Part shown: positions 14,459-27,660 of the stretch, piece by piece
Position numbering within the stretch: position 1 is the first letter of the stretch
How the letters are laid out: every line of letters starts with the position of its first letter
Origin: Deltaproteobacteria bacterium
GTDB taxonomy: Bacteria; Desulfobacterota; Desulfobacteria; Desulfobacterales; Desulfosarcinaceae
Reading direction: 5' to 3'
Assembly: GCA_020444075.1 (NCBI GenBank)
Contig: JAHLLR010000025.1
Span: 1-63,184, forward strand
DNA: 63,184 nucleotides
The notes under the pieces: model-generated
Databases searched by the model: none
What the model was told of the DNA's origin: nothing
What the model saw: only the letters and a program-made list of their open reading frames with translations
Program-made: the position numbers and the translations under genes

Positions 14459-15136
14459 TCATGGCGCCGAAGGCACTTCCGGAAGCTGCAATTGGGACCG
14501 AAGCCAGGAGTCGCAGTTGGCCAGATAGGTGAGGGCCTTGTAATGGTTGCCCACATCCGGATATTTCTCAACCACAGCCGTAAACCGTGCCTTGGCCGCC
14601 TTGTAGTTCCTGTTCTTGTAGTAGAACATCCCCACGTAGAGCTCGTGTCCGGAGAGACTCTGGTAGCAGGCCAGCATATCACTGCGGGCCATGCCGGCAT
14701 AAGCATCTTCCGGATATTGCTGGACCAGGCGCTGGTAGGTTTCCAAAGCCTTGGCGGCATTGGACTGATCCCTGTCGATCGTATCGATCTGGTTGAAATA
14801 AGAACGGCCGATGCGGAAAATCACATAAGGGATGGCCTCGTTGCGGGGATGGAGCTGCTCGAACTCTTCGTAGGCGAAGATGGCATCGGCATAGGATTCC
14901 AGATTGAAATAGGCATCGGCAATCTTCAGCTCCGCCAGAATGGCGTACCGGGAAAACGGATACCAGTCCCGCAGTTTCTCGAAGGATTCAACGGCTTTTT
15001 TATATTTTCCGTCCTCGAAATAATCAACGCCGTCCTGCACCAGCTCCTGGGCGGACTTCTCCTCTTTGGATTCGAACCATGCGCACCCGGAACAAATCAG
15101 CACCACACCCACACAGGCAAGCAGTAACCGTTTCAT
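14459..15136 (-). CDS. bamD: Outer membrane assembly lipoprotein BamD
   Basis: Essential lipoprotein of the BAM complex that folds outer-membrane beta-barrels. The start is taken at ATG 15136 (MKRLLLA) because GGAG lies 11 bases upstream; a GTG at 15148 abuts that site. A signal peptide leads to a lipobox-like CSGC with the lipidated cysteine at 18; a Cys at -3 is unusual. Five TPR-type helical repeats follow (SFEKLRDWYPFSRYA, YEEFEQLHPRNEAI, YQRLVQQYPEDAYA and others). 225 residues is close to E. coli BamD (245). Two stem-loops lie in its leader. Confidence 0.9.
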   Translation of the reverse strand: MKRLLLACVGVVLICSGCAWFESKEEKSAQELVQDGVDYFEDGKYKKAVESFEKLRDWYPFSRYAILAELKIADAYFNLESYADAIFAYEEFEQLHPRNEAIPYVIFRIGRSYFNQIDTIDRDQSNAAKALETYQRLVQQYPEDAYAGMARSDMLACYQSLSGHELYVGMFYYKNRNYKAAKARFTAVVEKYPDVGNHYKALTYLANCDSWLRSQLQLPEVPSAP

Positions 15137-15160
15137 GATCAGCGACACTCCGTTGCGTAG

Positions 15161-15225
15161 GGGAACACGAGGGTTCCCGTTGGCAGAACCGACACCGGCG
15201 GTGTTCCCTTCCGGGGCACCGCCGG
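15161..15225 (-). promoter_or_regulatory. Two stem-loops in the bamD leader
   Basis: Between trxA and bamD the minus strand can form two hairpins. The first pairs 15195-15203 with 15217-15225 (9-bp GC-rich stem CCGGCGGTG). The second pairs 15161-15166 with 15173-15178 (GGGAAC/GTTCCC). Neither is followed by a T-run in the direction of transcription, so they are not typical intrinsic terminators. They may affect read-through from trxA or bamD mRNA stability. Confidence 0.4.
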
Positions 15226-15252
15226 CCTATCATCCACTATAGAAAAGGGCGG

Positions 15253-15279
15253 AAAAAAAGACGATGTCACATCATGACA
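15253..15279 (-). terminator. Weak intrinsic terminator at trxA end
   Basis: On the minus strand a 5-bp stem (TGTCA/TGACA, 15275-15279 with 15265-15269, 5-base loop) overlaps the trxA stop codon. Five bases later comes a run of seven T. The stem is short and AT-rich, so termination is probably inefficient. Confidence 0.4.
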
Positions 15280-15601
15280 GAACGTTTTTGAGAGCCTCTT
15301 CCAACTTCGATTTGGCCACCATGCCGGTAATCTGGTCCGCCACTTCACCGTCTTTGAAGAAGATCAGCGTGGGAATGGCTTTGATGCCGAATTTCCCCGG
15401 TGTAACGGGATTATCGTCGACATTGCACTTGGTAAATTTCACTTTATCCCCATAGGCTTTGGCCAGTTCGTCGAGAATAGGACCGATAGCCTTGCATGGG
15501 CCGCACCAGGGAGCCCAAAAATCAACCACCGCGGGTTTATCGCTCTTCATTACTTCTGCATCAAAGCTGCTGTCTTCTATTTCCTTAATACCTTCTGCCA
15601 T
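15272..15601 (-). CDS. trxA: Thioredoxin
   Basis: General cytosolic disulfide reductase. The 109-residue protein has the canonical active site WCGPC (residues 32-36), followed by the cis-proline in KAIPTLIFF. The start ATG 15601 has AAAGGATA upstream; an ATG six codons earlier lacks a good site. A sigma-70 promoter is recognisable at 15650-15678. There is no thioredoxin reductase next door. Confidence 0.96.
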   Translation of the reverse strand: MAEGIKEIEDSSFDAEVMKSDKPAVVDFWAPWCGPCKAIGPILDELAKAYGDKVKFTKCNVDDNPVTPGKFGIKAIPTLIFFKDGEVADQITGMVAKSKLEEALKNVLS

Positions 15602-15649
15602 GATGAGATATCCTTTCAATTATTGTTGGGCAAGCTGAAAATTCTAATC

Positions 15650-15678
15650 AAGATAGTAATATGGCTCTTGATTGTCAA
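15650..15678 (-). promoter_or_regulatory. Sigma-70 promoter of trxA
   Basis: On the minus strand, TTGACA (15678-15673) is separated by exactly 17 bases from TATCTT (15655-15650). The -35 is a perfect consensus and the -10 matches 4 of 6. It lies about 50 bases upstream of the trxA ATG in an otherwise AT-rich stretch. Confidence 0.65.
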
Positions 15679-15786
15679 CCGTTCCTGTTTGTTTTTGGAA
15701 TCGCCGGCCCGGTGGAACGGCAGCCGATTGGGTTTTCGCCCGGCAGGTAATTTCATGCCGACGGATTAAGCAGCCGTGGCTTTTCC

Positions 15787-17004
15787 TCAGGACGCCTTAG
15801 CGGCGATGTCACTCCATTGGCAGGCTTGCAGGTACAAGGCCGGAAGGGTTTTGTCATCGAGCTTCAACGCGTGGGACAGAAGGGCCACCCGGTCCCACCG
15901 CCCGGTCTCATAGGAACGCACCAGCATGATGTATCCGGCAAGGCGGCCCTTGGCATCAACCAGAGCGTGCTTGATCTGACTGGAAAGGGGAAGTTCACCC
16001 AATATCTTGTCCATGGGCTGGTCGATAACGGCATCGATGAGGGAAAACATACCCAGGGTGAACATCTCCGACGGAGATGTCTGCTCATTCGCCTCGCCGC
16101 CAAGGAGTTCGCAGAACTTGCCCCGGATGCAGGCCGTCCGGATCAGCTCGTCGGGTTTCCCTTCCGCCAGCCGCGACATGGCGACGAGAAAAACAAAGCG
16201 GCGGATCTCCTTTTCTCCCAAGTAAACCAGGGCCTGCTTCACGGAAGTCACTTTGGTGGCTCGTGCAAAAAAGGCGGAGTTGAGATACTTGAAGAGCTTG
16301 TAGGAGATACCCATGTCCCGGGCAATCAGCCGTTCCAGTTCGTCGCAGCTGAAGGTCTCGCTGGTGATCTGAGCCATGATCATCATCAGCGTGAGCTGGG
16401 ATCCTTGGATTTCACGCCTCTTTATAATCTCCGGTTTACAGAAGAAGAAGCCCTGGAACAATTCGAAGCCCATTTTACGGGCCGCCTCAAATTCGTCGTG
16501 GGTTTCCACCTTCTCGGCCAGAAGGCACAGGTGGTTGCTGGAAAGTTGCTTCAGGGAAGTCCCGATCGCTTCTTTCGGCGTCAGCCGGAAATCGAATTTG
16601 ATGATGGTCGCCAGGGCGATAAGCGGCTCCAGTTCCGGCCTGTACACGAAATCATCCAGGGCAATGGTATAGCCGTCGGCAGTCATTTGCGCACAGGCAT
16701 CGATCAGCGCAGGGTCGGGCTTGACGTCTTCCAGGATTTCGATCACCGTGGATGCTTTAGGCAGCAGCAGCGGAATTTTCTTTTCCAGAAGGTTCTGGGT
16801 AAAATTGATAAACGATTTTCTTCCCCCGGCCAATGTATCCATCCCAATGGTGAAGAAGGTGTTGGCCAACAGGGTGGTGGTGGCCACATCCCCGTCGATA
16901 TCGGGAACATGGTTGGCCGTTCCGTCCCGAAACAGAAGCTCGTAGGCGTATATATTCTTGTTCTTGTCGAATATGGGCTGTCGGGCGACGTAAATATCTT
17001 CCAT
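15787..17004 (-). CDS. EAL-HDOD signalling protein (YuxH family)
   Basis: Residues 1-200 form an EAL-like domain. It keeps YELLFR in place of EAL, FINFT, VIEIL, LDDF, KFD, AEKVET and QGFFF. However, loop 6 after LDDF reads VYRPELEP instead of GTGYSSL, so cyclic-di-GMP hydrolysis is doubtful. Residues 205-405 are an HDOD domain (LTLMMIMAQITS, ISYKLFKYLNSAFF, VKQALVYLGEKEIRRFV), which lacks HD catalysis and usually mediates protein contacts. The start is ATG 17004 (MEDIYVARQPIFD); the frame is open further upstream without support. Likely a cyclic-di-GMP-binding or scaffolding regulator of motility or surface behaviour (inference). It diverges from purN. Confidence 0.88.
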   Translation of the reverse strand: MEDIYVARQPIFDKNKNIYAYELLFRDGTANHVPDIDGDVATTTLLANTFFTIGMDTLAGGRKSFINFTQNLLEKKIPLLLPKASTVIEILEDVKPDPALIDACAQMTADGYTIALDDFVYRPELEPLIALATIIKFDFRLTPKEAIGTSLKQLSSNHLCLLAEKVETHDEFEAARKMGFELFQGFFFCKPEIIKRREIQGSQLTLMMIMAQITSETFSCDELERLIARDMGISYKLFKYLNSAFFARATKVTSVKQALVYLGEKEIRRFVFLVAMSRLAEGKPDELIRTACIRGKFCELLGGEANEQTSPSEMFTLGMFSLIDAVIDQPMDKILGELPLSSQIKHALVDAKGRLAGYIMLVRSYETGRWDRVALLSHALKLDDKTLPALYLQACQWSDIAAKAS

Positions 17005-17210
17005 ATGGCTTTCTAACAGGTTTTCGTCCTGAAGTTGTTTGTCGAAGGGCGCTGACCGGGTCCCGCAAACTTCATTATCGGCCCCAAGGGCCATAACTTG
17101 AACCCACAGCCACACCATCTGGAAATTGACATGAGCCGGCTATCTCTGCTACCTCATTTCAAAAGGCGCAACCGGCCGGAAACCGACCTCAAAGAGAAAA
17201 GGGGATGCTA

Positions 17211-18047
17211 ATGGTTGAAAAAATTCGCATCGGCGCACTGATATCAGGCGGCGGAACCAACCTCCAGGCCATTATTGATGCCTGCGAAGACGGTCGTATC
17301 GATGGAAAGATGGCATTTGTGGCATCGGACCAACCCGGGGTGAAAGGCCTTGAGCGGGCCCGCAACCACAACATCCCCTGTTTCGTGGTGGAATATGGGC
17401 CATTCATTCAATCCTTCCGGCAGGATCCGGCGAATTTTGCGCTGCCTGACGATTTCGACTTCTCAGCGATACGGGCCAAACAGCATCTGTTTCCCGCCGA
17501 TGTCCCCGAAGAGCGCGTCCAGGCATTTTTCTGCACCCGGGCTGCCGCCGAAAGCCGCCTGCTGTCCGAAATAGACACCCACGGCCCGGTTGACCTGCTC
17601 GTGCTGGCCGGTTTCATGCGCAACCTGACCCCCTATTTTATCGACCGATTCAACACCGATCCGGGAAATCCGCGCATCATGAACATCCATCCGGCCATTT
17701 TACCTTCATTTCCAGGCGTTGACGGCTACGGGGACACCTTCCGCTACGGCTGCAAGGTGGGCGGATGCACGGTACATTTTATTGATTATGGGGAGGATTC
17801 GGGACCCATTATCGGCCAGCGGGCCTTTCCCATCCTGGAAACAGACACCCTGGACGACGTCAAGCGCAAGGGCCTGGAGCAGGAGTGGCAGCTCTATCCG
17901 CAGTGCATTCAGAATTTTGCCCGGGGGCGCTTAAAAACCGTGACCCTGACCCATCGCCTCGACGACGGCCGGATCTGCCAGCGCACCGTGGTAAAAACCG
18001 CTCACTCCGCTGAGGGCGAATTCAGGGATGACGGAATGGCGCGTTGA
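17211..18047 (+). CDS. purN: Phosphoribosylglycinamide formyltransferase-like (PurN) with insertion
   Basis: Formyl-THF-dependent transferase of purine synthesis. ATG 17211 has AGGGG six bases before it; ATG 17205 overlaps that site. Motifs: ISGGGTNLQAII at residues 11-22, NIHPAILPSFPG with catalytic Asn and His, and HFIDYGEDSGPIIGQ with catalytic Asp. At 278 residues it is about 65 longer than E. coli PurN (212). About 40 extra residues lie between 64 and 105, and a tail follows the core. No other pur gene is nearby. GAR transformylase is the likely role, but the insertion leaves room for another formyl acceptor. Confidence 0.85.
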   Translation: MVEKIRIGALISGGGTNLQAIIDACEDGRIDGKMAFVASDQPGVKGLERARNHNIPCFVVEYGPFIQSFRQDPANFALPDDFDFSAIRAKQHLFPADVPEERVQAFFCTRAAAESRLLSEIDTHGPVDLLVLAGFMRNLTPYFIDRFNTDPGNPRIMNIHPAILPSFPGVDGYGDTFRYGCKVGGCTVHFIDYGEDSGPIIGQRAFPILETDTLDDVKRKGLEQEWQLYPQCIQNFARGRLKTVTLTHRLDDGRICQRTVVKTAHSAEGEFRDDGMAR

Positions 18048-18100
18048 GGATCAGGTCAAATCAATTGACTAATCCCAGCAGCCCTTAATTCCGCGATGCA

Positions 18101-19270
18101 TTACAGGTATTTCATCATCATGGGAATGGCCACGAAGGTACCGGCGGCGCTGCCCAGATTGGTAAACACCACCACCAGCAGAATGCGGGTAACCTTGTTG
18201 CGCCAGAAGCCTTTGACCGAGAGGATATCGATGGGCAGGCTTTCGAAATCCTTCACCTTGGGCTTGCGGGAAATGGCCTCAACCAGGCCGGACACCCACC
18301 CCGCGGCAATCATGGGGTTGAGAGAGGTCAACGGTGCCGCCAGAATGGACGAGAGGATCGTCAGCGGGTGGCCCAGGGCGATCAGGGCACCCAGGCCGGC
18401 CAGTATGCCGTTGGCCAGAATCCACCAGACCACCATGTCGGCACCGGCGCTGGCACCGCCACGAAAAAAACCATAGATGATTAGGGTACAGATACAAAAA
18501 GGGATGAACCATTTCAGGAATCCGGGCAGCGGGCCTTTGGGGGGCAGGGACTCCAGGGCGTTGATGTCGATGGGTTGGTCCCAGTACTGCTTGATGCCGG
18601 GTACGTGACCGGCGCCCACCACGGCAACAATGGTCTGCCCGGGTGCCGACCGGATCTTTTCCGTCAGGTAGCGGTCCCGTTCGTCGATGAGGCAAGTGCG
18701 CACCTGGGGCATGGATTTGCCCACCTCATCCAAGATGGAAGCCAGCATGTCCTGCTGCTTCATCTTTTCCACATCCGCCTCGCTGATCTCGTCCACCTCT
18801 CCCAGAGACAGAATCAGCTGGAAAAGCAACTTGAGCTTGCCCCACAGCCCCATGCTTCGCCACGTCCGCGACAGGGTGATGCGGATATCCCGGTCGGCCA
18901 GATGGACAGCGGCGCCCACCGTTTCGGCAGAATCCATGGCCTGGATCATTTCCTGGCCGGGAGCCACCTCCAAGCGGTTGGCAATGCGTTTTTGAAATGA
19001 TGCCAGCATCAGGTTGGACAGCAGGAGAAAGGCCTTTTTTTCTTTAATCACCTTGATGATGTCCATCTCCTGCCAGCGATCCTTCTGGCGGATGGACTGG
19101 GCGCGGCCTTCGCAAAGCTCCACACAGACCGTATCGGGCTTGACGTCGGCGATGATGGCTTCGACCAGATCCACGCTCTCTTTTGACACATGGGCGGTGC
19201 CGACAAGGATAACCCGTTTACCGTCATACTCCAGATGGTGGAGCATCTCGCTGTTGAATTTATCGTTCAT
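18101..19270 (-). CDS. TraB/PrgY-family membrane protein
   Basis: 389 residues. The N-terminal 230 form a TraB domain with the signature GTAHVSKES near residue 20 and CVELCEGR near 55, plus AVVGAGHVPGI near 220. The C-terminal 140 residues contain about four hydrophobic segments (FIPFCICTLIIYGFF, WWILANGILAGLGALIALG, ILSSILAAPL, ILLVVVFTNLG), so it is anchored in the inner membrane. The family was named after enterococcal pheromone-shutdown proteins and resembles Tiki-type metalloproteases; bacterial function is largely unknown. The start is ATG 19270 (MNDKFNSEM), with GGGAAAGAAG upstream. It converges on purN and diverges from the AAA+ gene. Confidence 0.85.
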   Translation of the reverse strand: MNDKFNSEMLHHLEYDGKRVILVGTAHVSKESVDLVEAIIADVKPDTVCVELCEGRAQSIRQKDRWQEMDIIKVIKEKKAFLLLSNLMLASFQKRIANRLEVAPGQEMIQAMDSAETVGAAVHLADRDIRITLSRTWRSMGLWGKLKLLFQLILSLGEVDEISEADVEKMKQQDMLASILDEVGKSMPQVRTCLIDERDRYLTEKIRSAPGQTIVAVVGAGHVPGIKQYWDQPIDINALESLPPKGPLPGFLKWFIPFCICTLIIYGFFRGGASAGADMVVWWILANGILAGLGALIALGHPLTILSSILAAPLTSLNPMIAAGWVSGLVEAISRKPKVKDFESLPIDILSVKGFWRNKVTRILLVVVFTNLGSAAGTFVAIPMMMKYL

Positions 19271-19443
19271 CGAATATATGCTTCTTTCCCTATGGTCGGG
19301 GGTATTCCCGGCAGTTAAAAGCTGAGCCAATATATACGCTCTACCGGTGATGTCAAATATTGATTCCCGGCGCGTTGCTTCCCCGGAAGCAATATGCCGG
19401 CATCCGTGGTGCCGGTGGACATGAAACAGGGCTGGACGATCTG

Positions 19444-20256
19444 ATGCAGAAAAATCGCGCTTCGAAAAATCCATACACCATCGACACCGAACCCTTTTAC
19501 CTGGACACCGGTGACGAAATCCGCATGTTCGAGGCAGCGGCATCGGCCCGGCTGCCCGTCATGCTCAAAGGCCCTACCGGATGCGGCAAGACCCGATTCG
19601 TTGAACACATGGCCTTCCGCCTCAACCGTCCCCTGATCACGGTTGCCTGCCACGAGGATTTGTTTGCCTCGGACCTCATCGGCCGCTACCTGCTTAAAGA
19701 CGATGAAACCGTCTGGGTGGACGGCCCCCTGACCCGGGCCGTAAGAATGGGCGCCATCTGCTATCTGGACGAAGTGGTCGAAGCGCGCAAGGATACCACC
19801 GTGGTCATTCACCCGCTGACCGACAACCGCCGGACCCTCTCCATCGATAAAAAGGGGGAGGTCATCCGGGCGCATCCTGATTTTCTCATGGTAATCTCCT
19901 ACAACCCGGGTTACCAGTCGGTGCTTAAAGACCTGAAGCAGAGCACCCGCCAACGCTTCGTGGCCCTCGCCTTCAATTATCCGAATCCGCCGGATGAAAG
20001 CCGAATCGTGGCCGCCGAGGGAAAGGTGGACGACGATACGGCTGCGCGACTGGTGACGTTGGCCGGAAAGATCCGCAATATCAGGGAACACGGCCTCACC
20101 GAAGGTGCATCCACCCGGCTGCTCATCTATGCCGCCGGCCTGATCCGCCAGGGGATCTCTTTTAAAAGCGCCTGCACTGCGGCCCTGTGTCAGCCGCTCA
20201 CCGACGACGACCGGCTGCAGGAAACCCTCAACGACCTGATCGACGACCTGATGTGA
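19444..20256 (+). CDS. CbbQ/NirQ/NorQ-type MoxR AAA+ ATPase
   Basis: 270-residue AAA+ protein with Walker A GPTGCGKT (residues 43-50), Walker B ICYLDE, sensor-type VISYNPG and the C-terminal CbbQ_C region. The family works with a VWA-domain partner to insert metals into, or reactivate, enzymes such as RuBisCO (CbbQO), nitric oxide reductase (NorQD) and methanol dehydrogenase (MoxR). The partner is directly downstream: the TGA here ends at 20256 and the next ATG is at 20258. ATG 19444 is chosen because MQKNRASKNPYTI matches the usual family N-terminus; the frame is open 84 bases further upstream. No RuBisCO, Nor or other obvious client is in this window. Confidence 0.88.
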   Translation: MQKNRASKNPYTIDTEPFYLDTGDEIRMFEAAASARLPVMLKGPTGCGKTRFVEHMAFRLNRPLITVACHEDLFASDLIGRYLLKDDETVWVDGPLTRAVRMGAICYLDEVVEARKDTTVVIHPLTDNRRTLSIDKKGEVIRAHPDFLMVISYNPGYQSVLKDLKQSTRQRFVALAFNYPNPPDESRIVAAEGKVDDDTAARLVTLAGKIRNIREHGLTEGASTRLLIYAAGLIRQGISFKSACTAALCQPLTDDDRLQETLNDLIDDLM

Positions 20257-20257
20257 T

Positions 20258-23014
20258 ATGCAACCGGCCCGCCCCCCCGCCCCAGGCCACAAGACCCCGG
20301 ATCAGGCATTCCGGCACCTCATGGACCATCTGGCGACAGCCGACCCGGTAGCCGCGCAACTGATGCGCGGCCATCTGACCGGCTCGGAACCGTCAACCTT
20401 TATTAACCGACTTTCCCGGGTGGTGGACGAGGTAATCGAAGCCCTGGCCGTGGAGGTCTCCTTCGGGCGCAGCCTGGCCGAGGGGATGGGCAGGATGCTG
20501 GCCGGCGGCGCCGGGGTCGACCTGGACAGATACATCAGCCTGGTAAAAAAGGCCGCCGCCAGAGGACCCACCCTGGCCGGCCTGATTGCCCGGCACCTGG
20601 TGCCGGTAATGGTCTGGGGTGACGCCGGCCTTGCGGACCGGTTCGAGGAGACCACCCGGGTCATGCTGCAAAAAGGCACCTATACTCTCAAGGCGCCTCT
20701 GGAGACCCTCTCCCACTTGATCCAGGAAAAAGACCTGGCTTGTGCCCACGCCTTTCTCGATCTTCTGGCCGCCACCTATGCCCTGGAGACCTCTTACAAC
20801 CGCACGGTTTACCTGACCCACGCCCTGCCCCGTGCCGTGGACGGGTTTGCCCGCTCCCGCCGCTTACGGCAGATCCGGGGATTGACGCGCATCATCCGGA
20901 CAGATGAACGGCTGGCCGACAATTTCCTTGAGGGGTTGGCCTCGGGCCTTCACCTGCTGTCGGAGCCGGCACTGAACGAATTTATCGACCGGGCCATCCG
21001 GCAGTACAAAAAAGCCTCTGATCGGGGAGCCCGATTCCTTGCCCTCGAATCCCGGCCGGCGTTAGAATGTTGCCGTGACCTCCAGGTGGCCGTGCCCCTG
21101 TCGGCAGTCCGGGCAGGGCTGGAACGCTACCTGAAAGCCCGCACGGGGTTGGACGTGGCCATCCGCCCGCTTTCTTCTCTAGCGGGAAAGCATCGGCCCA
21201 ACGACCCGGACATGCCCCTGGTTCGGTGCGATGGCCGGTCCGTCTTCCTGCCCGACGAGATGGACTGGATGGACCGGAAAGCGGACAATGTCAGCTTATT
21301 TAAACTGCTGGTCAGGCTGGAAGCCGGTGCCATCGAATTCGGCACCTATGACCTGGATGTGGAAAAAGCCCTGGATAACGCATCCATTGCCCCGCCGTCG
21401 GACACGTCCGAATCCGACCTGAGCCGGTTCCTCCGCGGGTTCGAGCATCCCGTCCTGGCCCTGGACCTGTTCACCCTCTGCGAACACGGCCGCATCGCCC
21501 GCAAGGTCAGCCAGCGCTACCCCGGCCTGTTTCGCCGGCTCACCGAGGCCCTGTCCGATGATCATCTGCAGGCCAGAACCGGCTCGGCAATCGGCGGCAC
21601 CTGGTTTCCCCTCTACCGACAGCTGGTGATGAATGAAGGACCGGTGGCGGATCCGACCCTTAAATCGGCGGGGCAGGCCTTGTCTGATCGATTGGCCCGG
21701 GCGACCTCATCCGCCAATGACACGGCCGACACCAGTGCACAGCTGACTATGGAGTTCTATCCGATACTGGCCGGCCACACGGCTGCAACGGGAATGCCTG
21801 CCTATCACCCCCTGAATCTGCCTTTCGGCCGTCGGCTGGAACCGACTTTTTTTGGCCCCTTTTACACCGCCTATCACCGCCTGGCCGCGGATATCCACCA
21901 GCTTCTGGCCCAACGGAAAATCCGCGTCTTCCGGTCGGACATCCGGCGTCTGATCGTCCGGCAAAACGGCCAGGTTTCGTCAGCGGACATCCGCCCCCTG
22001 ATCGTGAAGCCATCATCGGCACCGCCCGCATCCGATGTCACCGACCTTTCCTGGCTGGATCTGGAATCTCTGGTATGCAGCCACGGCCTTGGACAGCCGG
22101 CAAACAACGCCGACGATACCGATGCCTTTCGCTACCGGGAATGGGACTGGTGCATGGGCGATTACCTTCCTGACCGGGTCCGGGTGCTGGAGCGGGAAAT
22201 TCACGGACCGGACCCCGGTTTCTACCTGCAGACCCTCGATACGTTCCGCGGTCTGGTCAGGCGCATCCGCTACGCCTTCGAACTGCTGCGACCCGAAGAG
22301 ATGACCATCCTGCGCCAGTGGCGGGAAGGCGACGCGTTCGACTACCGGGCGCTGCTGGACTATGCCCTGGATAAGAAGGCGGGGCTGATGCCGTCGGATC
22401 GTTTGTTTATCAAACGAATCAAACGGGTAAGAGATGTGGCCACCCTGCTTCTGGTTGACCTGTCACGGTCCACGGGGAACATGGTGGACGACCGGGGGAT
22501 ACGGGTGCTGGATGTGGAAAAGCAGGCTATCGTATTACTCTGCGAAGCCCTGAAGGTGGTGGGGGACCGGTTCGCTATCGCCGGCTTTTCCGGCACCGGC
22601 CCGCTGGGGGTGGACTATTACCGGATCAAGGATCTGGATGCGCCTTTTGACGATGCCGTAAAGGGGCGCATCAGTGCCATGGCCCCCCAGCGCAGCACGC
22701 GCATGGGGGCCGCCATCCGCCACGCCACTGCCCTGCTTTCGCCGGTGCAGGCCCGGGTGAGGCTGATCATCATCCTGGGAGACGGATTTCCCAACGATTT
22801 GGCCTACAAGGGACCCTATGCGGTGGAAGACACCCGCCGGGCCGTCATGGAGGCCCGCACCGCCGCCATCCACGTCAAGGCCATCACCGTCAATGCCAGC
22901 GACAACGGACAGCTGGACCGGCTCTACGGCAACAGCCACCACACACTCATCGGCAACATCGGGGACCTGCCGGACAGGCTGGTAAGGGTTTACAGCGCAC
23001 TGACCCGGCATTAA
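20258..23014 (+). CDS. NorD/CbbO-type von Willebrand factor A protein
   Basis: 918-residue partner of the AAA+ ATPase. The long N-terminal 600 residues look helical and are specific to this family. YREWDWCMGDYLPDRVRV near residue 625 matches the conserved pre-VWA segment. The VWA domain fills the last 200 residues with a complete MIDAS: DLSRS at 734-738, Thr in QRSTRMGAAIRHA, and ILGDGFPND. It is longer than Pseudomonas NorD (about 610). Together the pair would form a chaperone motor that grips a metalloenzyme through the MIDAS ion. The client is unknown here. Confidence 0.86.
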   Translation: MQPARPPAPGHKTPDQAFRHLMDHLATADPVAAQLMRGHLTGSEPSTFINRLSRVVDEVIEALAVEVSFGRSLAEGMGRMLAGGAGVDLDRYISLVKKAAARGPTLAGLIARHLVPVMVWGDAGLADRFEETTRVMLQKGTYTLKAPLETLSHLIQEKDLACAHAFLDLLAATYALETSYNRTVYLTHALPRAVDGFARSRRLRQIRGLTRIIRTDERLADNFLEGLASGLHLLSEPALNEFIDRAIRQYKKASDRGARFLALESRPALECCRDLQVAVPLSAVRAGLERYLKARTGLDVAIRPLSSLAGKHRPNDPDMPLVRCDGRSVFLPDEMDWMDRKADNVSLFKLLVRLEAGAIEFGTYDLDVEKALDNASIAPPSDTSESDLSRFLRGFEHPVLALDLFTLCEHGRIARKVSQRYPGLFRRLTEALSDDHLQARTGSAIGGTWFPLYRQLVMNEGPVADPTLKSAGQALSDRLARATSSANDTADTSAQLTMEFYPILAGHTAATGMPAYHPLNLPFGRRLEPTFFGPFYTAYHRLAADIHQLLAQRKIRVFRSDIRRLIVRQNGQVSSADIRPLIVKPSSAPPASDVTDLSWLDLESLVCSHGLGQPANNADDTDAFRYREWDWCMGDYLPDRVRVLEREIHGPDPGFYLQTLDTFRGLVRRIRYAFELLRPEEMTILRQWREGDAFDYRALLDYALDKKAGLMPSDRLFIKRIKRVRDVATLLLVDLSRSTGNMVDDRGIRVLDVEKQAIVLLCEALKVVGDRFAIAGFSGTGPLGVDYYRIKDLDAPFDDAVKGRISAMAPQRSTRMGAAIRHATALLSPVQARVRLIIILGDGFPNDLAYKGPYAVEDTRRAVMEARTAAIHVKAITVNASDNGQLDRLYGNSHHTLIGNIGDLPDRLVRVYSALTRH

Positions 23015-23081
23015 AATAAATCAGGTAAGAAATCCTGGCCCAAAGGGGCATGTTTTTCAGGTTGGAAGAATAGGAGCGCCT

Positions 23082-23522
23082 TTGAAAATTTTCGACGATG
23101 TCCTGATCTGGGACGGGTATGGCGGGAAATTTAATTTAGCTGCCGGACGCTGCCGGCTGCGGCTGTTCGACCTGTCCAGGGACAACACCGCGGGGGTGCC
23201 TCAGCTCAAACCGATCATCGCCGTGGTTTCCGATCTGCCCGGTGACCGGCTGCCCGCAATGAAAAGGGTTTCCGTACGGGCATGCATCAGCCACGTCGCC
23301 ACCACCATCGTCCACCGATTTAAAATCGACCACAACCGCATGGTGCTGGTCGAGTATTATCCCCGGGAGACCTACGGCAAGCAGTCCGAAAAGGTCATTC
23401 CTGAAAAATTCGACGTGGTGGACCTGAAATGGCACGGCGACAAGGCCTTGTTTCCCGGCTGGCGGCCCCTGAAGCCGCCCCTGTTGGACATTGTCCGCTC
23501 CCTGGTAACCGGCAATCCATAA
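23082..23522 (+). CDS. Conserved-looking hypothetical protein
   Basis: I do not recognise this 146-residue protein. It starts at TTG 23082 behind TAGGAGCG, seven bases upstream, and no ATG fits. It is predicted soluble, with no signal peptide or membrane segment and a basic, strand-rich composition. Notable segments are IWDGYGGKFNLAAGRCRLRLFDLS at the N-terminus and VLVEYYPRETYGKQSEKVIP near residue 90. It follows the VWA gene by 67 bases on the same strand, so it may be co-transcribed with the AAA+/VWA pair and could be part of that system. A weak 5-bp inverted repeat after its stop is not a convincing terminator. Confidence 0.7.
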   Translation: MKIFDDVLIWDGYGGKFNLAAGRCRLRLFDLSRDNTAGVPQLKPIIAVVSDLPGDRLPAMKRVSVRACISHVATTIVHRFKIDHNRMVLVEYYPRETYGKQSEKVIPEKFDVVDLKWHGDKALFPGWRPLKPPLLDIVRSLVTGNP

Positions 23523-23567
23523 CACCATCGGACGTTAAACGGCACGATCGTCCCCGCGCTTATTTTC

Positions 23568-24974
23568 CTACAGCCGTCCCTTTTCCAGGATTGCCTTTAC
23601 CGGAATCAGGCCGGTAGCGGCCGCAGACACGATGTTGCCGGCCACACCGGGCCCGTCACCGGCCACGTACATGCCTTTAATTTCAGTTTCCAGCTGAGAG
23701 GACGTCTCCACCTGGGTGGCGAAGAACTTGATCTCCGGGGCGTAGAGCAGGGTTTCGTCGTTGGACACGCCCGGCACTACCCGGTTCAATTGTTCCAGAC
23801 CATCGATGATATTGGTGAGGATGCGCTCGGGCAGCGCCATGGCGATGTCGCCGCAAACCACGTTGGTCAGCGTCGGTTCGATGTATCCTTTGCTGATGCG
23901 GTTCCAGGTGCTGCGACGGCCCCGCTTCAGGTCGCCGAAACGCTGCAGGATGGGTTTGCCGCCGCCGATAAGAGTGGCCAGGCGCCCGATGGCCTCGCCG
24001 TAGGCCTGATTATCGGTGACCGGTTCGGTGAGTACCACCTTGGAGAGAAAGGCGAAGTTGGAGTTGATCGATTTGCGGTCGTGATAGGCGTGGCCGTTGA
24101 CACAGACGAAGTCGCTGTAACTCTCCAGGGAGACAAAACCTCCCTGGTTGGTGCAGAAGGTTCGGGTCTGGTCGTCGTATTTTCCGGTCTGAACGAAAAA
24201 AGTGGGGTCGTAGATCACGTTGCACAGGTCCTGCATGATGTCGTTATGCACTTCCACCCGCACCCCCACCTCGATGCCCCGCTGGGTGAGGCCGATGCCG
24301 TGTTTTTGCGCCACCCGGGCCACCCAGTCCGCCCCGATCCGCCCCGGGGCCAGAATCACGTTATTACAGCGGTGCTCCCCCCGGCTGGTTTGAACACCCA
24401 CGACCCGACCCTGCTCGACGATGACATCCTTCACCTCCTCGGAGGTGTGAATCGTCACCCCCTTGGATTTGATATGATCGGTCATGGCGGCGATGTAACC
24501 GGGCAGACGGTCGCTGCCCAGGTGCTTCTGCTTGATCAACAACAGATCGATGCCGAACCGCTTGGCATGCTTTCTGATTGTCTTGGCCAGGTCCATGTCC
24601 GTGGGATAGACGGGACCGTCCATACCGAACCGGTTGAAGATCGCTTCGGTTTCGTCGATCAGGGCCTCGGCACGGACGATGGGCATGAACTGGGTCAGGT
24701 CGGTCTTGCCCAGCTTGTGAATAAAATTGAGCTTGCCGTCGGAAAACAGCCCGGCACCGCCGATGCCGCACAGGATGTTGCAGGGCCGGCACTGGGTGCA
24801 ATACTGCCGGTCCGCCACCGGACAGACCCGCTTGAGGGGTCCTTTTCCCCGCTCCAGGAGCAGCACCTTGAGGTCTGCATGTTCGCCGAGATAATAAGCG
24901 GAAAAGAGCCCGGCGGGTCCCCCGCCGACGATGATCACGTCATAAAAACCAACGCTCGCAGATGTGGTTGACAA
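23568..24974 (-). CDS. FAD-dependent oxidoreductase (COG2509-like)
   Basis: Flavoprotein dehydrogenase of unknown substrate. TTG 24974 is preferred: GGGAG lies nine bases upstream and the protein then begins 10 residues before the Rossmann fold. ATG 25028 has no ribosome site. VIIVGGGPAG (residues 14-23) binds FAD. A cysteine-rich stretch, CPVADRQYCTQCRPCNILC near residue 60, is characteristic of this family. GMYVAGDGPGVAGNIVSAA near the C-terminus closes the FAD site. 468 residues. It is transcribed toward the hypothetical at 23082. Confidence 0.85.
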   Translation of the reverse strand: MSTTSASVGFYDVIIVGGGPAGLFSAYYLGEHADLKVLLLERGKGPLKRVCPVADRQYCTQCRPCNILCGIGGAGLFSDGKLNFIHKLGKTDLTQFMPIVRAEALIDETEAIFNRFGMDGPVYPTDMDLAKTIRKHAKRFGIDLLLIKQKHLGSDRLPGYIAAMTDHIKSKGVTIHTSEEVKDVIVEQGRVVGVQTSRGEHRCNNVILAPGRIGADWVARVAQKHGIGLTQRGIEVGVRVEVHNDIMQDLCNVIYDPTFFVQTGKYDDQTRTFCTNQGGFVSLESYSDFVCVNGHAYHDRKSINSNFAFLSKVVLTEPVTDNQAYGEAIGRLATLIGGGKPILQRFGDLKRGRRSTWNRISKGYIEPTLTNVVCGDIAMALPERILTNIIDGLEQLNRVVPGVSNDETLLYAPEIKFFATQVETSSQLETEIKGMYVAGDGPGVAGNIVSAAATGLIPVKAILEKGRL

Positions 24975-25050
24975 TGGACGACGCTCCCTGGTTGACTTTT
25001 CATGGCAATTCCCCCAACATGCATGCAAATATCAACCGGTTTTCACCACA

Positions 25051-25257
25051 ATGAAAAAAAGATGCCCTCACCCGTCCAAGCAGCCCCTTACCCCCCAGGT
25101 TATCAAAAAGGGGGATGCGCCGCCGTGCCTCCATAACGGATGTCAATGCCGGGGATGCTTCGGATGGCAGAACATGCTGCAGGCCGCGGAAAACAGACCG
25201 GCGTGGCGAAAATACCCCCTTTGCTGCCAGATGACCGGACTGACGCTGAAATACTGA
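25051..25257 (+). CDS. Possible small cysteine-rich protein
   Basis: 68-codon open frame in the gap between two divergently placed minus-strand genes. The product would be basic with seven cysteines: one near the N-terminus, a CLHNGCQCRGC cluster in the middle and a CC pair near the end. This pattern is reminiscent of small metal-binding proteins. ATG 25051 has no Shine-Dalgarno, and there is no homologue I recognise. It may be a chance frame. Confidence 0.25.
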   Translation: MKKRCPHPSKQPLTPQVIKKGDAPPCLHNGCQCRGCFGWQNMLQAAENRPAWRKYPLCCQMTGLTLKY

Positions 25258-25263
25258 AAGCCG

Positions 25264-27660
25264 TCAATTCGAAGCATCGATAACATTTCTCACTTTTTCT
25301 GACAGCGATTGCAGGTCGAAGGGCTTTTGAATGAATCCGTTGCATCCCCGGTTCATGATTGCGCTAGCTTGCCCATCGATGCTGTAACCGCTGGAGAGCA
25401 GTACGTTGACCCCGGGATCGAAGGCCTTCAATTGATCAAAGGTCTTTCCCCCACCCATTTCCGGCATGATCATGTCCAGAATGACCAGATGGATCCGCTC
25501 CCCGTGATTCCGGTAGATCTCAACGGCCTCTTTTCCGCCCGTTGCCACAAGAACCCCATAGCCCAGCGCGGCCAGCATCGCCTTGCCGACATCGAGGATC
25601 AGCGGATCGTCATCAACCAGAAGAATAGTCTCGTTGCCTGCTTTTGTCGATGCCCGCATAGAGGTTGCTTCCCCCGGCGATGCCTCGGATGCCTGCAGGT
25701 GGATATGGAAGGTGGTTCCCTTTCCCTTCTGGCTGCTCACATCGATAAAGCCACCGTGATGACGAATAATTCCGTAAGCGGAGGCCAGCCCCAGCCCGGT
25801 TCCCCGGCCAATGGTCTTAGTCGTGAAAAAAGGATCGAAGATTCGCTCCATGGTGGCCGGATCCATCCCCGTCCCGGTATCGGTGATGGTAATTTTTACA
25901 TAATTTCCCGGCTCGACCCCATGGGGCGCCGCCTGGTGGTCGTCCAGGATTTCATTGGCGGTTTCCAGAAAAAGGCTCCCGCCGTCGGGCATGGCCTGCC
26001 AGGCGTTGATCAACAGGTTCAGCAGCACCTGCTCGATCTGGCCCCGGTCCACCTCCACCGCCCAGACATTTTCCATGCATTTATGGACAATCCGGAGTTC
26101 CTGCCGGGTCCGGCCGAACATATCGACGGTGTTGCGGACCAGCGCATTGATGTCGGTGGGCTTGACCTCATATTTTCCCATACGGGCAAACCCGAGCAGC
26201 TGTTGCGTCAGGCGGGCGCCACTTTGCACACACTCCCGAATGGTTTTGAGCCGGCTGCGGTATGCAGGGGAGGGTCCGCTATCCAGCGCCATCATTTCCA
26301 CATTGCCCTGGATGCCCATCAGCAGATTGTTGAAATCGTGGGCGATGCCTCCAGCCAGGGTGCCGATGGCCTCCATTTTCTGGGCCTGAATCAGTTGATC
26401 CTGGAGTTTTTCTTTCTCCCGGCCCACCTGTTCACGATCCGCGATCTCCTGCCGCAGCCGCGCGTTGGTCTTGAACAGCTCCGCGGTGCGCTCCGCCACC
26501 CGGTCCTCCAGCTGGTGATGGGACCGTTGAAGCGCTTCCTCGGCCTCCTTGCGTTTGGTCACATCCCGCGCATTGACCACCAGGCCTTCCACCGCAGGAT
26601 GGTCCAGCAGGTTGTTACTGGTGGCTTCCAGGATTCGCCAGGAGCCGTCCTGGTGGTGAAAGCGAATCTCCGATGCTGGCGGCGGTTCGATCGGGTCTGA
26701 GAGGATGCGGTTGTTGAACAGCTCAATCGAATACGCCTGGTCTTCCGGATGGATGAAATCGAAAACCCGCCGACCCATCACCGCTTCCTGCGGATATCCG
26801 AGAATCCGCTGGATGGAGGGACTCAGGTAGGCGATGCATCCCTTTTCATCCAGAATGGCGATGAGATCGGAGGTGTTCTCGATCAAAGATCGGAAATGTT
26901 CCTCCCGCTGCTGCAATGCGGTCAGGGTCTCCTGAAGTTGACCGGCCATCTGGTTGAACACCCGGGCAAGGCTGCCGAATTCATCCCGCGAACGGATCGA
27001 AATGCAGGTATCGAGATCACCCTTGCCGATCTGCTCGGCCCCCGCGGTCAGGAGCCGCAACGGTTCGGTCAGTCGGCGGGTCAACAGCATCAACCCTATG
27101 GCCATGACCATAAATCCGATGATCCCGAGGTTGATCAGGTAGGGCTTCATGCGGTTGGCCACCCCGTATACCTCCTGCTCCGGATCGCTGGCCAGGACAT
27201 ACCATTCCCATGGCTCGAAGTAGTCGACCATGGCCAGGTTCTTTCCCGCCGTTGTCAGATGAATCAACCGGCTTCTCTCCGGTTTGAGTCCTTTGAACCA
27301 TGCCTCCTGGCTGACATCCCGGCCCACCATGGCGGGATCAGGATGCATGACCACAGTGCCCCGCCGGTCGATGGCAAAAATAGTGCCCAGTTCCCCCACC
27401 TCGATGGTCGACATGGCAGCGCCGGCGTCGATTTTCGCCATGGCGATGCTGGCCGGGATATCCTCCAAGCCATACCGGTGGAGCATGTCATCCTGAGCGG
27501 CGGCAACCTGAATGGCTTCGGAAAGGCGGGTGTCCAGCCAGGTCTCGGCCAATTCCGTGAGCGCCGTACGCGAAAAATGATAGGCGATGGCCACGGTGGA
27601 CAGAAGCAGGAAAAAAACCAGGGGCAGCGTGGTGATCATGATTTTGGAATAGGTATTCAT
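25264..27660 (-). CDS. Hybrid sensor histidine kinase (Cache-HAMP-PAS-HK-REC)
   Basis: 798-residue membrane sensor. In order: a transmembrane helix at 8-28, a periplasmic Cache-type domain (about 30-175), a second helix near 180-198, HAMP, PAS (ENTSDLIAILDEKGCIAYLSPS), coiled coil, HisKA with phospho-His441 in GGIAHDFNN, HATPase (NLLINAWQAMPDGG, ITDTGTGMD, GTGLGLASAYGI) and a C-terminal receiver with Asp729 in LDMIMPE. No output regulator is adjacent, so phosphotransfer likely goes to a distant protein. It lies 38 bases after a solute-binding protein, suggesting ligand sensing by the pair. Confidence 0.92.
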   Translation of the reverse strand: MNTYSKIMITTLPLVFFLLLSTVAIAYHFSRTALTELAETWLDTRLSEAIQVAAAQDDMLHRYGLEDIPASIAMAKIDAGAAMSTIEVGELGTIFAIDRRGTVVMHPDPAMVGRDVSQEAWFKGLKPERSRLIHLTTAGKNLAMVDYFEPWEWYVLASDPEQEVYGVANRMKPYLINLGIIGFMVMAIGLMLLTRRLTEPLRLLTAGAEQIGKGDLDTCISIRSRDEFGSLARVFNQMAGQLQETLTALQQREEHFRSLIENTSDLIAILDEKGCIAYLSPSIQRILGYPQEAVMGRRVFDFIHPEDQAYSIELFNNRILSDPIEPPPASEIRFHHQDGSWRILEATSNNLLDHPAVEGLVVNARDVTKRKEAEEALQRSHHQLEDRVAERTAELFKTNARLRQEIADREQVGREKEKLQDQLIQAQKMEAIGTLAGGIAHDFNNLLMGIQGNVEMMALDSGPSPAYRSRLKTIRECVQSGARLTQQLLGFARMGKYEVKPTDINALVRNTVDMFGRTRQELRIVHKCMENVWAVEVDRGQIEQVLLNLLINAWQAMPDGGSLFLETANEILDDHQAAPHGVEPGNYVKITITDTGTGMDPATMERIFDPFFTTKTIGRGTGLGLASAYGIIRHHGGFIDVSSQKGKGTTFHIHLQASEASPGEATSMRASTKAGNETILLVDDDPLILDVGKAMLAALGYGVLVATGGKEAVEIYRNHGERIHLVILDMIMPEMGGGKTFDQLKAFDPGVNVLLSSGYSIDGQASAIMNRGCNGFIQKPFDLQSLSEKVRNVIDASN

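Follow-up and report, generated by a model that had tools for sequence, protein, structure and literature searches.

Pairs of a MoxR-type AAA+ ATPase and a VWA partner protein are known for few clients. In the case of RavA-ViaA, the client fumarate reductase is not in the operon neighborhood of the pair, and RavA belongs to a different MoxR subfamily. The available sections of PMC10585395 describe RavA-ViaA of E. coli as acting on fumarate reductase, while those of PMC9976466 and PMC13036017 describe NorQD as inserting FeB into cNOR. Here, a locus from a Deltaproteobacteria bacterium of the Desulfosarcinaceae (assembly GCA_020444075.1, contig JAHLLR010000025.1) is compared with these systems. 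The whole stretch analyzed, termed the window, comprises 63,184 nucleotides and is contig 26 of 173 in a draft genome that is 95.75% complete. It contains three open reading frames (ORFs) on the same strand, termed Q, D, and X, at the coordinates given by an earlier note made from the sequence alone. One base separates Q from D, and 67 bases separate D from X.

19444..20256, + strand: Q, a CbbQ/NorQ-type AAA+ ATPase of 270 amino acids (aa), with Pfam AAA_5 and CbbQ_C
20258..23014, + strand: D, a long VWA partner of 918 aa, NorD-like VWA with MIDAS
23082..23522, + strand: X, an alpha/beta protein of 146 aa of no recognized family, with a TTG start behind AGGAG

Q and D are a genuine orphan pair of a known machine type, with a clade of their own and an extended partner protein. 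The pair is probably a remodeling motor like CbbQO and NorQD but of a separate clade, with a client encoded away from the locus and with X as an independent protein.

Q is a member of the CbbQ/NorQ-type MoxR AAA+ ATPases, as the domains, the H2i motif, and the adjoining VWA gene are all present. Its start was taken as the ATG at 19444, which is internal to a longer listed ORF. The protein passes the Pfam profiles AAA_5 (119.4 bits, E-value 1.5e-34) and CbbQ_C (109.3 bits, 1.1e-31), above both cut-offs. Its top matches in the Protein Data Bank (PDB) are CbbQ 5c3c (361.9 bits), CbbQ 6l1q (351.1), NorQ 9qh4 (350), and NorQ 9qhd (326), and these CbbQ and NorQ structures align across about 250–260 residues, nearly the full length of Q. 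The motifs read from the sequence are GPTGCGKT (Walker A), CYLDE (Walker B), and GRYLLKDDET (H2i). In the available sections of PMC13036017, the H2i motif GRXLL/IXXXXT touches the VWA finger, and cysteines 46 and 68 of P. denitrificans NorQ form a disulfide; both of these cysteines are retained in Q. A PADLOC scan returned for Q just weak IetA matches at the P-loop region. The pair is the single one of its type in the genome, where the sole further match to Q covers 54 residues (E-value 4.8e-5).

The C-terminal VWA domain, intact MIDAS, and finger insertion of NorD/CbbO-type partners are all present in D. Its matches to Pfam VWA are sub-threshold only (1.4e-4). The last 300 residues align to NorD via the finger stretch and the MIDAS (profile E-value 1.7e-61), and MIDAS residues D734, S736, S738, T814, and D842 are invariant across 69 aligned sequences. 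An AlphaFold model of D (mean pLDDT 86.7, pTM 0.67) superposes on the NorD VWA domain with a structural Z of 28.2 and a root-mean-square deviation of 4.2 over 283 residues (D 622–917), in structure searches that covered mainly residues 622–918. The predicted domains are a helical N-terminus (about 14–296), a middle part (to about 615), the finger (about 675–725), and the VWA/MIDAS domain (about 725–918). Sixteen helices open the model, up to residue 296, and we read this predicted region as solenoid-like. In three genomes of genus g2 (G001, G002, and G007), a VWA paralogue sharing the C-terminal part of D occurs in open frames of 1337–1430 residues.

The remainder of D sets it apart from its best-described relatives. 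D has 918 residues, compared to 645 in Phaeobacter NorD, 743 in Cereibacter CbbO, and 581–745 in five partners encoded near amidase genes on plasmids. According to the available sections of PMC9976466, NorD and CbbO have unrelated N-terminal domains, which are linked to their differing targets. The N-terminal part of D was compared with other partners by hhalign profile-profile alignment, in which numbers are profile columns. D 57–356 matches a protein from Miltoncostaea with a profile probability of 98.9, and about D 197–484 matches the amidase-linked partners with a probability of 96.4. D 200–326 weakly matches one CbbO (probability 70.7, E-value 3.8e-5, 122 columns), and NorD is hardly matched. 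If the N-terminal domain tracks the target, following the logic of PMC9976466, then the client of D is probably not cNOR, because the D N-terminus is hardly NorD-like, and it need not be RuBisCO. A soluble client would be as likely as a membrane client.

Compared system by system, the CbbQO pair shares with this locus the Q family and its motifs, a VWA partner with a finger, and the weak N-terminal relationship just described, but it differs in its client, in the position of its Q, and in the length of its partner. NorQD shares the Q and VWA domains, the conserved MIDAS, and the finger stretch, whereas here no cNOR was seen and NorQ forms a separate clade. RavA-ViaA is comparable in its working, as a MoxR/VWA pair with an unlinked client. 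The amidase-linked pairs, from plasmids of Alpha- and Betaproteobacteria, share the VWA domain and the N-terminal part of D, but they are near aliphatic amidase genes, and there are none in this neighborhood. A pair on a plasmid of Miltoncostaea oceani (L193) is also an orphan, and two ORFs after its Q jointly match D 54–916 (73% covered). It differs in being actinobacterial, in having D split in two ORFs, and in having a Q outside the Desulfobacterota clade.

CbbQ/NorQ-VWA pairs were found near aliphatic amidase genes in five of eight plasmid contexts (L192, L194, L195, L196, and L199), which were taken from 60 listed of 1771 records. Four of these pairs are directly behind the amidase gene, while in L192 two genes lie between. 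Urea-type ABC transporter genes are close to four of the five, and an amidase-linked CbbQ/NorQ-VWA operon is mentioned in the available part of PMC13209695. The earlier note had expected the activated metalloenzyme next to such a motor, an expectation that is too narrow because related pairs are located near aliphatic amidase genes.

A tree of Q was built from 85 sequences: 73 from Desulfobacterota, three NorQ, three CbbQ, five amidase-linked, and one from Miltoncostaea, with a midpoint root for drawing only. Two of the 73 are recorded as Myxococcota; these are the same-family genomes G008 and G009. The 73 Desulfobacterota sequences form one clade (97/89), apart from the NorQ, CbbQ, amidase-linked, and Miltoncostaea proteins. 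Thus, Q is inside neither the NorQ nor the CbbQ clade, and the firm placement with NorQD that the earlier note had named as counting against it was not seen.

D is matched in 169 of 389 genomes of a class sample (E-value up to 1e-20) and, in a phylum sample, in 57 of 297 genomes (E-value up to 1e-60). All 30 genomes of the family have a D match of some kind, which in G016 and G007 is a partial C-terminal match in another frame. Near-full-length matches outside the order occur in families f79 and f112, and the remaining such matches listed are mostly to the VWA part. No CbbQ/NorQ pair in Desulfobacterota is described in the titles and abstract starts that were listed from the open-licence literature, and in the available sections of the NorQ papers PMC13036017 and PMC9976466, “Desulfo” occurs only in a reference. 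That D, a long partner, is present in so many class genomes and has no linked client implies that sulfate reducers and related bacteria possess an enzyme whose dependence on ATP-driven remodeling has gone unrecognized.

In the D loci read, including those outside the TraB locus described below, there is no client gene that recurs across families. Together with the Pfam domains and the match to NorD structures, this upholds the description of an orphan CbbQ/NorQ-VWA pair with an unusually long VWA protein. The earlier note had also remarked that RuBisCO and Nor are missing. For RuBisCO this holds throughout the genome, which has no match to PF00016 in a search that was positive in 5 of 14 control genomes. 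For Nor it holds for the neighborhood but not genome-wide. A search of the draft genome for the COX1 family returned two frames, one a qNOR and the other a cbb3-like subunit I, and no cNOR (norCB). The qNOR (G000:C56:115-2382, L151) has 756 residues and matches NorB_cytochrome_c-like (196.5 bits) and COX1. The cbb3-like oxidase gene (G000:C79:179241-180608, L150) adjoins a FixO-like cytochrome gene, and its ccoN match is under the cut-off.

It is very improbable that Q-D matures one of these two heme-copper-type enzymes. Both genes are in the genome, the insertion of FeB into cNOR by NorQD is a precedent (PMC9976466 and PMC13036017, in the sections available), and the oxidase is enriched in genomes with D (65 of 169, compared to 35 of 220 without D; odds ratio 3.3, p 6.7e-7, with descent and genome size ignored). 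Against this, the oxidase is unmatched in 104 of the 169 genomes with D and in 7 of the 13 genomes of the genus. The qNOR has no association with D, which occurs in 27 of 56 genomes with qNOR and 142 of 333 without (p 0.47), and qNOR is reported to be independent of NorQD in the available sections of PMC9976466. Of the 13 genomes of this organism’s own genus, 3 have qNOR and 6 have the oxidase, compared to 12 with D, the thirteenth (G016, 63% complete) having the partial D match. The weak likeness of the D N-terminus to NorD also counts against this explanation, and both enzymes were rejected as clients.

By analogy with the described systems, a Q hexamer would grip the VWA domain of D, with the finger in the ring pore. 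ATP hydrolysis would then rotate and stretch D, and a client enzyme held on the large N-terminal part of D would be remodeled, either to insert a cofactor or to free it from an inhibited state. As with RavA-ViaA, the gene for this client would be located away from the locus, and X would be an independent protein of the order.

The sole client-related clue is found in one family, f30, and hints at iron as the cofactor. In six of the eight f30 loci with sequence downstream of D (L152, L154, L155, L156, L157, and L159), genes for a Fur-FeoA fusion and FeoA are co-directional with D and lie 63–442 bases behind it. FeoB is present in five of the six, and in the sixth the contig ends. The other two loci have X behind D, and a ninth f30 locus ends behind D. 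Naming of the Feo proteins relied on Pfam in one locus and on clustering in the remaining loci. It is conceivable, with only a small chance of being correct, that Q-D represents a further CbbQ/NorQ class centered on Desulfobacterota and that delivers ferrous iron to an anaerobic metabolic enzyme, or restores its activity, where no need for such a machine is known. The adjacent Fur-FeoA, FeoA, and FeoB would feed the motor in one lineage, and the helical N-terminus of D would be a new client-binding part. An iron study in Caulobacter in which a gene of the TraB family and a MoxR-like ATPase both appear (PMC3751524) was considered and set aside, as these have opposite-sign fold changes and no link is seen in the part available.

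X is, as had been noticed from the sequence, an unrecognized protein on the same strand as the pair. It has no family match in Pfam, NCBIfam, or PADLOC, and no match to PDB sequences up to an E-value of 10. A scan with 64 aligned X members gave stray matches only (best E-value 0.0048). The model of X (pLDDT 88.6) has a best Foldseek E-value of 0.22 and a best VIA Z of 6.2, within the stated noise range, a negative result that applies to the families listed in the fold searches. The genome contains a single match to X. Across 18 relatives, the start codon is TTG in eight, ATG in eight, and GTG in two, and AAGGAG lies 5′ of X in 9 of 11 congeners checked. X is found in 29 of 30 family genomes and in 211 of the 389 class-sample genomes (E-value up to 1e-3), in 189 of them with matches stronger than about 1e-19. 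Weak relatives occur on cyanobacterial plasmids (E-values 4e-6 and 4e-5) and in Sulfuricystis (0.04). Their three neighborhoods (L200, L201, and L202) were uninformative, and a comparison of X with phage gave no match.

The earlier note had suggested that X belongs to the machine, but it is improbable that X is a dedicated third component of the motor, whether an adaptor, a regulator, or a client. In 26 of the 29 family genomes that have X, D is on the same contig at a distance of no more than 2 kb. Outside the family, among the matches listed, 62 genomes have both genes, and in 38 of these they are within 6 kb. When the 22 of 211 X matches weaker than about 1e-19 are dropped, both genes are found in 131 of the 389 class genomes, X only in 58, D only in 38, and neither in 162 (odds ratio 9.6, with kinship ignored). 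These same counts include 58 genomes with X and no D match, which rise to 64 in a second table that drops 13 weak of the 169 D matches, and 31–38 genomes have D without a strong X match. The genes are unlinked in 24 of the 62 genomes, 11 of which have both located over 6 kb from where the contig begins. In the nine D loci that come from families beyond the order, the genes displayed next to D include no X.

The contexts of X argue in the same direction. Forty X loci were selected for depth inside contigs, so that their proportions are not frequencies. D adjoins X in 13 of them, TraB is within 1 kb without D in 17, and Q, D, and TraB are all missing from the vicinity in the remaining 10. Q is also missing from 16 of the 17 TraB-X loci, and 14 of these 16 genomes have no D among the matches listed, the other two (G042 and G059) having a weak D match. 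The exception is L136 (G032), in which Q is kept, flanked by TraB and X, and the matches to D are on two other contigs, in two pieces. In genus g112, represented by the genomes among the matches listed, G256 has TraB-Q-D-X and G353 has TraB-X, and three further genomes contain X but show no match to D. Unlinked relatives are what the earlier note had said would refute its idea of a third part, and in the neighborhood survey X is often either at a distance from D or in a genome where D is unmatched; X is therefore separable from the motor. It persists without the motor and is a syntenic companion rather than an obligate partner, a role that was rejected on the strength of X without D, unlinked X and D, TraB-X loci, and the g112 contrast.

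Several observations weigh against a motor of this kind with an unlinked client and an independent X. The strong association of X and D described above may in part be functional, and apparent absence of D in draft assemblies may be incompleteness. Q-D linkage is not universal: no Q is within 3 kb of D in 18 of 60 D loci, several of which are at contig ends and which include three of the six f30 Feo loci. Most of the 60 were picked for unusual contexts, where D looked unlinked from X or was outside the order, and their proportions are not frequencies. In the Q tree, the NorQ branch is long, and the bootstrap of the tree is unsettled. The fingertip of D has low confidence in the model (681–694 and 714–722). 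The middle part of D weakly matches NorD over about 30 columns with a probability of 17.7, a stretch weakly seen in a second comparison too. Moreover, that the client is unlinked is concluded because no conserved neighbor was seen in the loci read.

On the other side of Q lies a divergent gene, and the earlier note had correctly named its product as a TraB-family protein (TIGR00261, 350.4 bits).

18101..19270, − strand: TraB-family membrane protein, identified by TIGR00261 (350.4 bits) and synteny; ORF listed to 19543
19329..19356, − strand: sigma-70-like promoter match (11/12) in the traB-Q gap, pointing towards traB, from a consensus scan only

TraB is found next to Q across many families of the order, and a dependence on metal has been proposed for TraB/Tiki proteins, which could suggest TraB as a partner or client of Q-D. 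This seems distinctly improbable, as Q-D occurs without nearby TraB within several families and also beyond the order (adjoining without TraB in 21 of the 60 D loci), and TraB-X occurs without Q-D in the 16 sampled loci. Genes on the purN side, which are bamD-, rpmB-, and spoT-like by reading of their translations, recur too, so that the adjacency of TraB may be inertia. TraB is a member of a conserved syntenic block, and this does not imply a functional role for Q-D. The genes were probably once arranged as a PurN-TraB-Q-D-X block from which Q-D was lost repeatedly, an old order that would explain why X usually follows Q-D.

An Rfam scan of positions 15000–27000 gave no match. The listed TraB ORF is over-extended, with a start that reaches into Q. 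Its Pfam match begins only at residue 101, and its similarity to most relatives starts between residues 58 and 109. A start at Met92 (position 19270) is likely from the sequence, and would abolish the overlap with Q.

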